DNA of 64,000 nucleotides from Candidatus Pelagibacter communis (GTDB lineage Bacteria > Pseudomonadota > Alphaproteobacteria > Pelagibacterales > Pelagibacteraceae): positions 1 through 64,000 of the forward strand of contig NZ_CVSQ01000060.1 of NCBI RefSeq assembly GCF_001180165.1, read 5' to 3'. Below, one piece after another: positions 29,163 to 33,840 of this stretch (its first letter is position 1; each line of letters opens with the position of its first letter). The translations under genes and the position numbers were made by a program. The notes beneath the pieces are model-generated. The model was not told where the DNA came from. It did not search any database and worked only from the letters and a program-made list of their open reading frames with translations.

Positions 29163-29176
29163 TTTAAACTAAATTG

Positions 29177-29767
29177 ATGAAATTAAGAAAATTTTTATTA
29201 GTTTTATTTCTTTACTCATCGGTTTTTTCAAATTCTTATTCCATAGAACCAGATGTGTTTGTCCAATCTACAGTCAATAGAGCGTCTAATATTTTATCTA
29301 AAAATATATCTAAAGAAGATAAAATAAACGAATTAAAAGCAATAGCTAAAGAGACTGTAGACATTACAGGTGTTGGTTTTTATTCACTTGGGTCAGCAAG
29401 AAAAAATTTAGATGAGAATCAAAAAATTAAGTACTCTGAATTATTTGAGTCTTACTTTTTAAAAAGTTTTTCAAGTAGACTAGCTGAATACACTAATCCA
29501 GAAATTGAAGTACAAGGCAAAGAAGTGCTGAATAAAAACTATACAATTGTAAATAGCTTGCTAATTGGAACTTCTGATAGACCTGAGGTGAAAATTGATT
29601 GGAGGATATATACTAAAAATCCAGACAATCCATTAATTAGAGATTTGATAATTGAAGGTTTAAGTTTAGCAAGAACTCAAAAAGAGGAGTTTTCATCAAT
29701 TTTAAATACAAATGATGGAGACATTAATGCTCTATTTAAAATCTTAAAAGAATTCTCAAACAATTAA
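29177..29767 (+). CDS. mlaC: MlaC-type periplasmic phospholipid carrier
   Basis: MlaC-family proteins (Ttg2D/Tol-type) shuttle phospholipid between the MlaA complex and the inner-membrane Mla transporter. The protein has a signal peptide (FLLVLFLYSSVFSNSYS), then the family pattern: FVQSTVNRASNILSKN, IAKETVDITGVGFYSLG, YSELFESYFLKSFSSRL, VKIDWRIY and IRDLIIEGLSLARTQKEEF. A TTG three bases upstream is open, but the ATG at 29177 is taken as the start. It is the last gene before the tRNA-bounded insertion. Confidence 0.88.
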   Translation: MKLRKFLLVLFLYSSVFSNSYSIEPDVFVQSTVNRASNILSKNISKEDKINELKAIAKETVDITGVGFYSLGSARKNLDENQKIKYSELFESYFLKSFSSRLAEYTNPEIEVQGKEVLNKNYTIVNSLLIGTSDRPEVKIDWRIYTKNPDNPLIRDLIIEGLSLARTQKEEFSSILNTNDGDINALFKILKEFSNN

Positions 29768-29776
29768 ATAAATATT

Positions 29777-29823
29777 TTTGGTGGGCCCGCCAGGACTCGA
29801 ACCTGGGACCAATACATTATGAG
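29777..29823 (+). repeat. Left att-like copy of tRNA 3' half (47 bp)
   Basis: Perfect 47-bp match to 31800-31846, the 3' half of the CAU-anticodon tRNA from the anticodon loop to the CCA end. Only the 3' half is here, with no 5' half following, so it is a displaced attachment-site copy and not a functional tRNA. It lies 10 nt after mlaC, where the tRNA 3' end would have sat before insertion. Confidence 0.9.
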
Positions 29824-29886
29824 AGTCCTGAAGTAACTTAAATTAGTATTGAAGTTGTTAGCTTATTACTAAACGTTAAATTGATT

Positions 29887-29906
29887 TACACAATTTGGTA
29901 TACAAT
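29887..29906 (+). repeat. Island inner repeat, left copy
   Basis: A 20-base sequence (TACACAATTT then GGTATACAAT) matching 31709-31728 at 18 of 20 positions in the same orientation. It contains two TATACAA-like units 11 nt apart and lies 64 bases inside the left att copy. The arrangement resembles arm-type recombinase or excisionase sites, but AT-rich DNA makes chance similarity possible. Confidence 0.5.
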
Positions 29907-29933
29907 TGATGTGCTAAATTTTTATACAAAACC

Positions 29934-30626
29934 CTATAATACTTTTTCATAAATATCTCCTAAAGTATTTCCATCATTATTAATTATTGCCTCTTCTCCA
30001 AATCTATTAATGATTAGTTCGATAAACTCACACTCGTCAATTAGCTTATCATCAATCTTTACTATTAGATTTCTATAGTCGTTTGGCATATTAAATACAT
30101 AGTAATATTTATCATTTATTTTTGAATAAATAATTGAATGAGTTTCAAATTCTTTAGCTTTAAATTCTTTAAGTGTTTCTGCGACTTTGACTATATAAAA
30201 TGATTTAAAATTAGAACTAATAGTTTCTAAAAAAGTACCTTCATTTTTATGACTTTCTAGTGCTTTTTCATATTCTTTATATTCTTTTTTGTACTTATCT
30301 TTTATCTCTATGACGTTATTTTCTGAGTGATACTCATAAGGGTGGAAAAACCATTCAAGTTTTTGGAATTTATTTAAATTTTCACCTTCAGGAAATCCAT
30401 CAATGTCATTGATATTTGGGTCTAAATTTTTTTCATTACTGCAGCTTTCTATTGCACATTTTTCAATATTAAAATTTTCTACATTTGGATCTGCAGACGG
30501 ATTTAAAAACCACTCGGCAAAGCTCTTTTTTTCTAAAAGATTTACAAATTTTTTAAGATCAAGATTTTTTTTTATATAATCAATATTATATAGTATCGTT
30601 TCATCTTTTTTATTAACTATTGTCAT
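29934..30626 (-). CDS. Island protein of unknown function with EWF repeat (230 aa)
   Basis: I do not recognise this family. It is a soluble, acidic protein without signal peptide or membrane segment. Two similar blocks, AEWFLNPSADP (Glu38-Trp39-Phe40) and LEWFFHPYEYH (Glu91-Trp92-Phe93), suggest an internal duplication of a short EWF-x-x-P module. Two closely spaced cysteines (CAIESC) lie between them. The C-terminal half (YIVKVAETLKEFKAKEFE onward) looks like a mixed alpha/beta domain. Its ATG shares one base with the stop of the 58-residue gene upstream (TAATG), so it is the third gene of the island operon. Confidence 0.7.
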   Translation of the reverse strand: MTIVNKKDETILYNIDYIKKNLDLKKFVNLLEKKSFAEWFLNPSADPNVENFNIEKCAIESCSNEKNLDPNINDIDGFPEGENLNKFQKLEWFFHPYEYHSENNVIEIKDKYKKEYKEYEKALESHKNEGTFLETISSNFKSFYIVKVAETLKEFKAKEFETHSIIYSKINDKYYYVFNMPNDYRNLIVKIDDKLIDECEFIELIINRFGEEAIINNDGNTLGDIYEKVL

Positions 30627-30802
30627 TAGTTTAAAACCTTATCAAATATCGTTATTTTTACTCTAAAATGAGATTCTGAAAGATCTTCATAAATAACTTT
30701 AAATTTATTATTAGGATCAATATTTTTAAGAACTAAACTTATATATTCATCAACTTTATAAAGGGAATGGTTGTAACTAAAATATCTTTGTAATGTTCTC
30801 AT
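30626..30802 (-). CDS. Small island protein, unknown function (58 aa)
   Basis: A short frame read from the sequence: it begins MRTLQRYFSYNHSLYKVDEY, continues with ISLVLKNIDPNNKFKVIYED and ends in KITIFDKVLN. It starts by ATGA overlap with the stop of the membrane-protein gene and stops in a TAATG overlap with the 230-residue gene. Two coupling junctions in a row strongly support that it is translated. The predicted layout is a helix followed by two or three strands. The family is unknown. Its size suggests a regulatory or antitoxin-like partner, but that is conjecture. Confidence 0.65.
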   Translation of the reverse strand: MRTLQRYFSYNHSLYKVDEYISLVLKNIDPNNKFKVIYEDLSESHFRVKITIFDKVLN

Positions 30803-31650
30803 TGATATTTATCTATAAAACTTTTAATTTTATTAAAAATAGCACTTAAAAATATGAAAATATAACATAAGGCTGCAATACCTCCAAAAATTATAAATAG
30901 ATTGCTAAAAAATGAAATTTCTCCTGATGGAAAAAAACTTTTTTCTAAAATAGAAATCAAATACAAAATTAAAGAACAAGTTAAAACAAAAATTAGTATT
31001 TTCCATTTTTTTTCAAATTCATTTTCAATGAGTAAAATTTTATCGATATAATTCATTATTATTGAGCCAAAATAAGATAAAATAATAGCTGAAATCACTA
31101 AAACAATTACAAGAATTATTAAAGTAACAATTATGTAACCTAATGATATAGAGGTATCTAATAAAGAGGAGCCTATTTCATATAAAGATTGTGTAAAAGT
31201 TCTAGTGGCATAATAATCATTTAAAAAATTGTTTAACAAGTAAAGTACAGCAATAAATAATATTAATGCAGGTATTAAAGAAATAATACCAGTAAATTTA
31301 TCAAAGAATCTCTCTTGTTTTTTTGTTAACTTTAATTTTGTTTTAATATTTAAACTTCCTAAAAATTCATAAAAATTAAAAGTTGAAGAAATAAGAATTA
31401 AAATTACCCAAAATCCAGAAATATCAAATTTCATTGCTAAATAGTAAGCTAAATAACAAAGACTTAAACTTATGTGTAAACCAGAAAATTTTATATAATT
31501 TTTATTTTTTTCTTCAATACCAGTTAGAATACCAAAAATTATAAAGAGAAAAATTAAAGTTAACCAACCACAACTTGAATTTAAAATTCCAATTGAAATA
31601 CATTTATTGAAAGATTGAATAAACCACCCTAAAATTGGAATATTTTCCAT
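30799..31650 (-). CDS. Island multi-spanning membrane protein, unknown function (283 aa)
   Basis: I do not recognise the family. About seven hydrophobic segments are visible, near residues 27-44, 57-75, 78-95, 119-141, 168-195, 217-232 and 243-272. A lysine-rich loop around residues 103-117 (KTKLKLTKKQERFFDK) is probably cytoplasmic. No transporter, kinase or nuclease motif was found. It is the first gene of the island operon and overlaps the 58-residue gene by 4 nt. The region upstream holds the right inner repeat, where its promoter should lie. Confidence 0.75.
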   Translation of the reverse strand: MENIPILGWFIQSFNKCISIGILNSSCGWLTLIFLFIIFGILTGIEEKNKNYIKFSGLHISLSLCYLAYYLAMKFDISGFWVILILISSTFNFYEFLGSLNIKTKLKLTKKQERFFDKFTGIISLIPALILFIAVLYLLNNFLNDYYATRTFTQSLYEIGSSLLDTSISLGYIIVTLIILVIVLVISAIILSYFGSIIMNYIDKILLIENEFEKKWKILIFVLTCSLILYLISILEKSFFPSGEISFFSNLFIIFGGIAALCYIFIFLSAIFNKIKSFIDKYQ

Positions 31651-31708
31651 TATAGAAAATATATCACTGGTTATATATGGAGACTAGTACATTCCAATAA
31701 GCTTTTGT

Positions 31709-31728
31709 TATACAATTTCGTATACAAT
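31709..31728 (+). repeat. Island inner repeat, right copy
   Basis: TATACAATTT then CGTATACAAT, matching 29887-29906 with two mismatches. It contains TATACAA twice, 11 nt apart, and lies 71 bases inside the right att copy and about 60 bases upstream of the membrane-protein start. It may be a recombinase site or an operator of the island operon. Confidence 0.5.
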
Positions 31729-31799
31729 GAAGAGCTACTTTTGATCTTTTTTAAGAAAAGTTTGAAGAATAAAAATTTTTAAACGTTGATTTTGCTAGA

Positions 31800-31846
31800 T
31801 TTGGTGGGCCCGCCAGGACTCGAACCTGGGACCAATACATTATGAG
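31800..31846 (-). repeat. Right att-like copy within intact tRNA gene
   Basis: Same 47 bp as 29777-29823, here forming the anticodon loop, variable loop, T arm, acceptor 3' strand and CCA of an intact tRNA. The site of recombination is expected somewhere in these 47 bases. Confidence 0.9.
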
Positions 31847-31878
31847 TGTACTGCTCTAACCAACTGAGCTACAGGCCC
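31802..31878 (-). tRNA. tRNA with CAU anticodon (probably Ile2, else elongator Met)
   Basis: A complete 77-nt cloverleaf including encoded CCA. Acceptor GGGCCTG pairs with CGGGCCC (one G-T). D arm is GCTC-AGTTGGTTA-GAGC, anticodon arm GTACA-CTCATAA-TGTAT (one G-T), variable TGGTC, and T arm CCAGG-TTCGAGT-CCTGG. The anticodon is CAT. The C4-G69 and C5-G68 pairs and the Ile-like acceptor favour the lysidine-modified isoleucine tRNA reading AUA, but elongator methionine is not excluded. Its 3' half is the integration target of the adjacent element. Confidence 0.92.
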
Positions 31879-31937: not shown

Positions 31938-32012
31938 TGGTGGGCCGTGTTGGTTACGCTCCAACTACCCCTGCAATGTCAATGCAGTACTCTACTATTG
32001 AGCTAACGGCCC
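31938..32012 (-). tRNA. tRNA-Val(GAC) with non-canonical D and T loops
   Basis: 75 nt with encoded CCA. Acceptor GGGCCGT/ACGGCCC, anticodon stem CTGCA/TGCAG with loop TTGACAT (anticodon GAC) and T stem GTTGG/CCAAC are all fully paired. The D loop AATAGTA lacks the G18-G19 pair, and the T loop AGCGTAA lacks T54-T55 and A58, keeping only C56-G57. Paired helices and CCA argue for a real, expressed tRNA despite the odd loops. It lies between the CAU tRNA and rpoD. Confidence 0.85.
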
Positions 32013-32016
32013 TAAA

Positions 32017-33840
32017 TTAACTTTCCAAAAAACTTTTTAATTGTTTCGATCTACTTGGATGTTTTAGTTTTCTAAGAGCTTTAGCTTCTATCTGTCTAAT
32101 TCTTTCTCTAGTAACAGAAAATTGTAGACCGACTTCTTCCAACGTGTGATCTGTATTCATTCCAACACCAAATCTCATTCTAAGAACTCTTTCCTCTCTT
32201 GGAGTAAGTGTTGATAGAATTTTAGTTGTTGCTTCACCTAAATTTGATTTTATAGCCTGCTCCAATGGAGCTAAAGCTTTGGTATCTTCAATAAAATCTC
32301 CGAGACTGCTGTCTTCTTCATCTCCAACTGGTTTTTCAAGTGACACAGGCTCTTTTGAAATTTTTAATACTTTTCTAACTTTATCAAGTGGCATCCTTAG
32401 TTTTTTGGCCAATTCTTCTGGCGTCGCCTCTCTACCAAATTCACTTAATATCAGTCTTTGAGTTCTAACAATTTTGTTGATTGTTTCGATCATATGAACA
32501 GGTATACGAATTGTTCTTGCTTGATCAGCTATAGATCTCGTGATTGCTTGTCTTATCCACCATGTTGCATAAGTAGAAAATTTATAACCTCTTCTGTATT
32601 CAAATTTATCAACTGCTTTCATTAATCCGATGTTTCCTTCTTGAATTAAATCTAAAAACTGAAGACCTCTATTTGTATATTTTTTAGCAATAGAAATAAC
32701 CAATCTTAAATTAGCTTCAACCATTTCTTTTTTTGCAATTCTTGACTCTTTTTCTCCTTTTTGAATTCTACTTACAAGTTTTTTAAAATCTGTTACTGAA
32801 ATTCCAAGTTTGTGACTAATTTCAATTAATCTTTCTCTAATATTTTTAAATTCTTCTTTATTCTTAGTAAAAAATTGTTTCCAAACAGAGTTTGTGTCTA
32901 AAAATTTTTTTAAATTAGGATTAATTTCATTACCAATGTAAAATTTAATAAATTCATTTCTAGGTATTTGGTGATCCATTGCTAGTCTTAGAAGATTGCC
33001 CTCTAAAGAAATAATTTTTTTATTTTCTACATAATGTTTTTGCACAAGTTCTTCTAAAACAGATGGGGATAGTTGAAGAGATTTAATATTTTCTAGTATA
33101 TCATTAACAATTTTTTCATACCCCTTTTCTTTTGCAGGTGAAAAATTTTGGGATGCTAAAATACAATCCAATTTTTCTTTTTGATACTTTATTAGCTTGG
33201 TATATTCTTTTGTTAATGTATTAACCGTTTTTAAAACTTTTGGTTTAATTTCAGTTTCCATTGCTGCAAGCGTTGGGTTAAAATCATCTTCTTCGTCAGA
33301 AGAACTGTCATCTTTTTCTGTATCACCAGAATTTTTTTGTTTTGCACTTGGCCCAGTTGACTCATCTTCCATATAATTTGTATCAATATCTATAATCTCT
33401 CTAACTAAAATTTCATCTTTTTGCAGTTGTTCATTCCATTCGAAAAACTGCTGAGCAGTAATTGGACTCTGAGAAAGTGCAATTAACATTACATCTTTAC
33501 CTGCTTCTATTCTTTTAGCGATTGCAATTTCACCTTCTCTGGACAAAAGCTCAACCCCACCCATTTCACGTAAATACATTCTTATAGGGTCATCACTTTT
33601 TTCAATTGTCTTACCTTCTTCTTTATTTGAATTTTCTTTTTTTCTTAGAACTTTAAAATCAGATTTTTTTTCAACTAATGTAATATTTTCATCTAAAATA
33701 TGAATAAAAGCTTGAGATAGATTTTCATCAGATAAATTTCTTTTACCAAGAGATTTACTTAACTCTTCATAGGTAATAAAACCTCTATGGGTTCCTCGAC
33801 CCATAAGTCTAGCAAATGATTTTGTAATAATTCTTTCCAC
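32017..33840 (-). CDS. rpoD: Primary sigma factor RpoD (sigma70)
   Basis: Housekeeping sigma subunit of RNA polymerase. The 607 residues contain [11 protein letters not shown] (region 1.2), an acidic non-conserved insert with [10 protein letters not shown], region 2 with [24 protein letters not shown] and the -10-recognising [17 protein letters not shown], region 3, and region 4 with [10 protein letters not shown] and [20 protein letters not shown]. It closes the yqeY-dnaG-rpoD macromolecular-synthesis group, 67 nt after dnaG, and is followed within 5 nt by tRNA-Val. Confidence 0.98.

Follow-up and report, generated by a model that had tools for sequence, protein, structure and literature searches.

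Cis-mobilizable elements (CIMEs), which were described in Streptococcus, have lost their integration and transfer genes and kept the attachment sites attL and attR (PMC5704250; this and the other papers are cited from excerpts of their text). In Dehalococcoides, 15 repeat-flanked islands at ssrA contain no integration module and were proposed to be cis-mobilizable (PMC3146451). Here we analysed a 64,000-nt stretch of DNA from Candidatus Pelagibacter communis (contig NZ_CVSQ01000060.1, positions 1 to 64,000; hereafter the window), in which a unit of about 2 kb lies between mlaC and rpoD and is bounded by two copies of the 3′ part of a tRNA-Met gene. The organism belongs to SAR11, a group which is among the most abundant marine bacteria and has streamlined genomes with little mobile DNA. 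We propose, with a probability of about 0.8, that the unit is a member of a SAR11 family of non-autonomous integrative cassettes, similar to CIMEs or to miniature inverted-repeat transposable elements (MITEs), which would be moved by the integrase of another element.

Results

The unit and its family at tRNA-Met

The unit is bounded by an exact 47-bp direct repeat at positions 29777-29823 and 31800-31846, which is present in two plus-strand copies in the window with a start-to-start spacing of 2,023 bp. The repeat consists of 45 nt of the tRNA-Met 3′ part, including the anticodon, and 2 further bases. In the right copy these 45 nt are located inside an intact tRNA-Met (CAT) gene (31802-31878, minus strand), which was identified by ARAGORN and was also matched by the Rfam tRNA model. 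The three open reading frames (ORFs) of the unit, all on the minus strand, encode 230, 58 and 283 aa (29934-30626, 30626-30802 and 30799-31650, respectively). None of them had a Pfam match above the cut-off, the best PHROG match had an E value of only 0.04, and no recombinase was found among them with either collection. Hence, the perfect 47-bp repeat bounding 2,023 bases, the intact tRNA and the recombinase-free content, which had been claimed in a first-pass annotation made from the sequence alone, were all recovered, the repeat at its exact coordinates.

The ends of this unit could be aligned across a family of 24 distinct complete units, which are 1,298-2,623 bp long, a number reached after adding units located via their ends. 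The mean identity of the other 23 units to that of the window was 63% over the left 90-bp end and 68% over the right 122-bp end, as compared to 40% for random internal windows. In 22 of the 24 units each end contains two 8-bp repeats with a 12-bp period, in which 14 to 19 of 19 bases match ACTCAATTTGGTATACAAT. Counted from the start of the left repeat, the left pair begins at position 109 or 110, and 73 or 74 nt separate the end of the right pair from the tRNA, in the same 22 of 24 units. In the window the putative left arm-type site is TACACAAT-TTGG-TATACAAT (29887-29906, plus strand), at the position common to these units, while the putative right one is TATACAAT-TTCG-TATACAAT (31709-31728, plus strand), located within the conserved right end of about 120 bp that is common to the other units (31683-31799). 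The right border is formed by a complete tRNA (77/77) in 22 of the 24 units, and in the other two it is followed by a second element.

The short sequences of these ends were closely tied to the same gene. The 15-mer CAATTTGGTATACAA was found 13 times, always at this tRNA-Met, in a total of 11 out of 300 genomes of the genus, that of the window included. The 19-mer AYWCAATTTGGTATACAAT had 36 matches among 84,980 species, of which 21 were in Pelagibacteraceae and all adjoined this tRNA-Met; the remaining 15, in other records, had no near-identical tRNA-Met copy at that distance. A core in a tRNA gene with arm sites around it is the layout of lambda- and Tn916-type integrases. The units have, at the sequence level, both the tRNA core and paired arm repeats at both ends, and by analogy these ends are predicted to be bound by an integrase.

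Empty and occupied sites between mlaC and rpoD

The order of genes in the window is MlaA, MlaC, the unit, tRNA-Met, tRNA-Val, RpoD and DnaG, with MlaC (29174-29767, plus strand) and RpoD (32017-33840) assigned by Pfam and tRNA-Val at 31938-32012 on the minus strand. The 300 genomes, which are a sample of a larger genus and are mostly incomplete assemblies, were searched for MlaC. A match was found in 222 of them, and 97 intervals behind mlaC, including that of the window, were analysed. These were picked by MlaC similarity and contig room, together with a few near-complete genomes, and their content was not a criterion. An empty site, in which mlaC is followed by 5-48 bases, tRNA-Met, about 50-75 bases, tRNA-Val and rpoD, was found in 39 of the 97 intervals. 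The tRNA 3′ part bounded a unit in nine intervals and the 5′ part an element in seven, and in one interval a degenerate 3′ copy lay at the end of the contig; tRNA-Val was not seen in nine. The closest relative in the panel (G223, MlaC 89%) had an empty site, while locus L237 (MlaC 91%) carried a unit with genes different from those of the window (G and L numbers denote genomes and loci).

The first-pass annotation had reasoned that a mobile unit should leave empty sites with a single repeat copy and different cassettes at the same place, while the same three genes conserved in synteny with both repeats would speak for an old fixed locus. Both of the former were observed, and tblastn of the three window ORFs gave zero matches in the other 96 intervals. 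The interval is also a general hotspot; by eye, genes of sugar or surface type without tRNA repeats were seen in L044, L045, L050, L038 and L042.

An intB-type integrase as candidate helper

Integrase genes were found at the same tRNA-Met in two larger elements. In G258 the intB gene (322 aa) begins about 90 bases past the right core of a unit that has no integrase, so that the two elements stand in tandem, and in G010 an intB with 92% identity to it directly adjoins the same tRNA 3′ part. Proteins similar to IntB (E ≤ 0.001) were present in 16 of the 300 genomes, with a near-identical tRNA part within 1.5 kb in G258 and G010 only. The left arm of the intB elements, ACTCACTCTCGTACTCAAA/T, is at position 109, which is the same place as that of the arms of the units. 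When scored against a matrix built from the 22 units, with intB left out, the intB arms reached 9.4 and 15.2 bits. Of 3,402,032 positions on both strands of loci L035-L216, some of them viral, 51 reached 9.4 bits, and all but about eight of these were arms of units or of intB elements. The intB arm and the variant arm of L221 and L224 are alike in 16 of 18 bases, as judged by eye. Genome G120 contains a tandem of two small integrase-less units of 2,008 and 2,328 bp, the second of which is outside the 24 and has at its right end a reverse-strand pair of GTACTCAC octamers, the octamer of the intB arm. The tandem at the same tRNA, the arm at the same position and the octamer in the G120 unit make the intB-type integrase the best helper candidate, with a presumed role in mobilisation.

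As to cargo, a protein similar to C5-methyltransferases is encoded by the intB element of G010, and a helicase with a match to Mokosh MkoA by that of G258. Two relatives of intB (L200 and L201; 56 and 52% identity) lie beside what by eye seems a broken tRNA-Gly 5′ part, and paired repeats are found upstream.

The helper could also be the integrase of an unseen pelagiphage or satellite instead of intB. Pelagiphages with integrases exist, and none of the cellular integrases found has the exact arm. Searches of viral contigs nevertheless returned no match to the 25-bp core, no relative of two of the three window proteins (230 and 283 aa), and, for the arm, a single match (L177) inside a 2,342-aa ORF of a phage contig, which was rejected as a viral source. 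The arm of the opposite-facing type-2 elements described below had 17 viral matches, none with a near-identical tRNA core or an intB-like integrase. Hence, a viral origin of the cargo, the core or the arms found no support in the viral contigs, and a phage helper appears unlikely. The comparison of tRNA-Met with phage records was discarded as a test for attP; 3,647 records matched, and the 20 listed were large phages, of which 18 had an annotated tRNA there. IntB itself matched 102 phage records, all with less than 60% identity, and the 20 listed were Pseudomonas phages.

Identity of units and of their flanks

The units of some diverged hosts shared nearly identical blocks. The L035 and L076 units contain blocks of 720 and 662 bp with 96% and 98% identity, respectively, as compared to 74% for the mlaC DNA of the two loci; for L076/L181 the corresponding values were 97% (666 bp) and 88% (675 bp) with mlaC at 65%, and for L035/L181 95% and 89% with mlaC at 64%. 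Identities at the borders were compared in the order left end, right end, mlaC, the 55 bases after the tRNA, and rpoD. They were 98, 98, 76, 69 and 83% for L035/L076, 91, 88, 71, 55 and 82% for L076/L181, 89, 89, 68, 76 and 84% for L035/L181, and 97, 54, 86, 96 and 96% for L037/L089. In other pairs one end was nearly identical as compared to the adjoining mlaC, namely in L085/L221 (98% vs 80%), L180/L224 (95% vs 69%), L218/L237 (95% vs 76%) and, for the right end, L065/L245 (99% vs 77%). Non-homologous rpoD windows (43-51%) of pairs with other inserts beside the units were not used, nor were the mlaC windows of L225, in which 1.1 kb of other DNA separates mlaC from the repeat, and of L239, which comprised only 120 bases. 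The drop of identity at the att borders argues for site-specific lateral transfer; it is clearest for L035/L076, modest relative to rpoD for the L181 pairs, and absent in L037/L089.

Homologous recombination between the conserved flanks (mlaC, the tRNAs and rpoD), which would swap cassettes with a site-specific enzyme no longer involved, fits the reassortment of modules, because L225/L245 share the left module (99%; right 60%) and L065/L245 the right one (99%; left 50%). It also fits the frequent insertions without repeats, which in the 97 intervals numbered 13 between mlaC and tRNA-Met, 20 between the tRNAs and nine before rpoD, in overlapping classes. On the other hand, the drop at the att borders, the conservation of arms and their spacing, and the tandem insertions with a third core copy argue against it, so that we consider this explanation improbable.

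The units could also be decayed remnants, that is stumps of integrase islands which lost the integrase and became fixed (CIMEs by decay). They are indeed without integrase, and integrase-bearing elements exist at the same tRNA. However, the PF00589 search of all 24 carrier genomes (12 + 12) gave no match within any unit, and no integrase fragment was recognised in the units by this search or by tblastn with intB. The left end of the units resembles that of the intB elements. A home-made integrase hidden Markov model, run on all element ORFs, matched its own training sequence only and was given no weight. Moreover, the 15-mer marks 11 of the 300 genomes, as compared to two with intB at the site. 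The first-pass annotation had left the choice between a remnant and a unit mobilised in trans; the latter is favoured, and a remnant is improbable, because 22 of the 24 units have kept their ends with the same spacing and because hosts that have diverged contain near-identical blocks.

Other tyrosine recombinases of the carrier genomes

The source genome of the window (804,609 bases, 66% complete) was searched for the Phage_integrase family, and the sole match was an Xer-like protein on a different contig. In a set of 20 genomes that carry units or type-2 elements, 16 had one such protein, usually an Xer-like frame of 325 aa; none was found in G294 and G105, and more than one only in G258 and G120. 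In 14 further carriers the 325-aa protein was found alone in nine and no integrase in five. Among 20 comparison genomes, of which 15 had the empty site, a 320-326-aa frame was present in 15, and 307-aa frames in G235 and G280; G161 had only an intB-like protein, G268 and G131 had none, and further integrases were present in G082, G253 and G122. The Xer-like protein is thus not universal, as it was missed in 2 of 20, 5 of 14 and at least 3 of 20 genomes, most of them incomplete. In NCBIfam the nearest model to the 325-aa protein was XerD, far below the cut-off. Its distribution, which is alike in carriers and comparison genomes, makes it look like a housekeeping enzyme. In carrier genome G120 an integrase match was also seen in a 556-aa frame on a different contig (L145, G120:C2:96138-96692).

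That this widespread Xer-like recombinase moves the units, as Xer does for integrative mobile elements exploiting Xer (IMEX), is highly improbable, because even though it is the sole tyrosine recombinase in most carriers and in the near-complete G012, G155 and G298, it is equally common in empty-site genomes, Pfam shows only its SAM-like N-domain, the conserved arms would be left unexplained, and IMEX elements use dif sites rather than tRNA genes.

An opposite-facing class of elements at the same tRNA-Met

A second class, called here type-2 to set it apart from the units (type-1), lies on the other side of tRNA-Met and is bounded by its 5′ part together with GTTGGTAA pairs; in the panel these elements measure 1.6 to 12.6 kb. 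The type-2 arm had 12 matches in 11 of the 300 genomes, of which 11 lie no more than about 110 bases from the tRNA-Met 5′ end and one (G107) 3.4 kb further in. In this locus (L088) two left-type GTTGGTAA arms are 3.4 kb apart, at about 865 and 4271 (G107:C2:12664 and 16070), perhaps as a tandem of type-2 elements. Type-2 loci were L040, L041, L045, L047, L049, L050, L104, L185 and L088/L183, and the right arm preceded the end of the 5′ copy by 115-116 nt in eight of nine and by 135 nt in L041. Their cargo is partly restriction- or defence-like: the L045 methyltransferase is 83% identical to that of the G010 intB element, and L185 proteins match PADLOC helicase and MzaC models. The PF00589 search in seven type-2 genomes found no integrase on the element, and G107, G094 and G144 had no intB-like protein.

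The two classes share small genes, and in L221 (5407-5605) and L248 (tRNA at 333-409) they flank a single tRNA-Met, which has a type-1 unit at one of its sides and a type-2 arm at the opposite one. The overlap of their repeats suggests that the crossover of both classes takes place in the anticodon arm.

Cargo of the units

The products of the window unit could be assigned to no family. The only PADLOC match of the 230-aa protein, to Cas10d (E 5e-4), was too weak to trust. The 283-aa protein had one other match in the 300 genomes, a 29%-identical fragment with stops. Single-sequence AlphaFold models had a mean predicted local distance difference test score (pLDDT) of 36.5 for the 230-aa protein and 57.3 for the 283-aa protein; the latter, low-confidence model is all-helical, and the protein is perhaps a membrane protein.

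Clustering of unit genes showed that few are in common, and that left and right genes combine freely. The cargo scans were partial and covered 11 unit proteins in Pfam (three of the window and eight others) and seven in PADLOC. They identified a NucS-like PD-(D/E)XK protein in L036 matching the PADLOC candidate PDC-S02 (E 7e-44), T5orf172/MUG113 proteins in L076 and L180 matching PDC-S57 (E 3e-68 and E 3e-16), a Peptidase_S9-like hydrolase in L179 and, below the cut-off, a YdjM-like membrane protein in L035. The 175-aa protein of L035 and the 191-aa protein of L037 had no match above a cut-off. These data suggest that some units carry candidate anti-phage genes, which may protect the host against phages. 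For the window's own cargo a role in defence would be a guess, since this label fits only some of the other units.

A very similar signal peptide (MKKLLGIVVLGLL...) was seen on cargo proteins with different mature parts in L035, L036, L179, L239 and L248, with looser likeness in L065, L225, L244 and L245. Short DNA repeats near its position in some units (L035, L036 and L179) possibly mark a recombination point.

Discussion

According to the proposed mechanism, each cassette would consist of an attP core (the tRNA-Met 3′ part with the anticodon), paired arm-type repeats at both ends, and between one and a few cargo genes, without a recombinase. A tyrosine integrase from another element, acting in trans, or in cis if both elements stand in tandem at the same tRNA, would recombine the core with the tRNA gene; the incoming core would restore the tRNA, while the old 3′ part would stay beside mlaC as the repeat. 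The intB-type integrase of the larger elements at this tRNA-Met, or a close relative of it, is the proposed source of the enzyme. A wider reading, in which recombinase-free attP cassettes live in a MITE-like manner as parasites of rarer integrase elements across SAR11, swap candidate anti-phage genes and share tRNA-Met with the opposite-facing integrase-less defence islands, has in our view an even chance of being correct.

Several observations weigh against the proposal that the units are moved by such an integrase. The movement is deduced from sequence comparisons, and neither an excised circle nor a moving unit was observed. The flanks of L037 and L089 (mlaC 86%, rpoD 96%) are nearly as similar as their left end (97%), and these two units carry other arms, with negative matrix scores. 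The ends of L076 and L181 (91/88%) are only modestly above rpoD (82%), ordinary homologous recombination could yield the reassortment of cargo, and a tRNA repeat is missing from many of the insertions at this hotspot. With regard to the helper, the intB arm and the common arm agree, by eye, in only 13 of 18 bases, and none of the integrases found had exactly the arm of the window. The intB elements are known from one end, as the G258 and G010 contigs end before another tRNA copy. Finally, among the 34 genomes with units or type-2 elements, which are incomplete, more than one integrase was found only in G258 and G120, and the rest had one or none.

If the proposal is true, a mobile cassette reduced to its attachment sites would be a cheap means of trading single defence genes in streamlined genomes, and one tRNA-Met gene would provide a precise, testable site for following gene flow in ocean populations.

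Titles and abstract openings of the papers found on tycheposons, CIMEs, non-autonomous and SAR11 islands, integrases and tRNA genes contained no description of this SAR11 family. Phage satellites, such as phage-inducible chromosomal islands (PICI), phage-inducible chromosomal minimalist islands (PICMI) and others, have their own integrase and a link to a helper phage, while the units have no integrase, and the viral contigs contained neither relatives of two window proteins nor the core. The units resemble the tycheposons of Prochlorococcus in being flexible-cargo islands of streamlined aquatic bacteria at tRNA genes, including tRNA-Met (PMC10872708, PMC11389934). Tycheposons are 4-200 kb long (PMC10872708), in contrast to the 1,298-2,623 bp of the units, and those of Methylophilaceae have a tyrosine recombinase (PMC10872708, PMC11389934), which the units do not. 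As in MITEs and clusters of attC sites lacking an integrase (CALIN), non-autonomous DNA keeps its cis sites and would borrow the enzyme; the units differ in having a tRNA core, arm-type repeats and protein-coding cargo, rather than transposase ends or a cassette array (PMC11389934). The Dehalococcoides islands differ in their serine recombinase and tmRNA target (PMC3146451).

The units resemble CIMEs in that they keep their att sites and no integrase or transfer genes were recognised in them (PMC5704250). Judged by sequence, both attL and attR are retained; the absence of integration genes refers to the PF00589 search of the 24 carriers, and that of transfer genes to the 11 Pfam-scanned proteins. 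A tandem with an integrase-bearing element was found once in the family, in G258, and not in the window itself. However, CIMEs are described as decayed integrative and conjugative elements (ICEs) or integrative and mobilizable elements (IMEs) (PMC5704250), while the units are small (1.3-2.6 kb), integrase-less in 24 of 24 cases, conserved at their ends and changing in cargo, and the family marks 11 of 300 genomes as compared to two with intB at the site. The family also shows that an island without an integrase is not necessarily a fossil.

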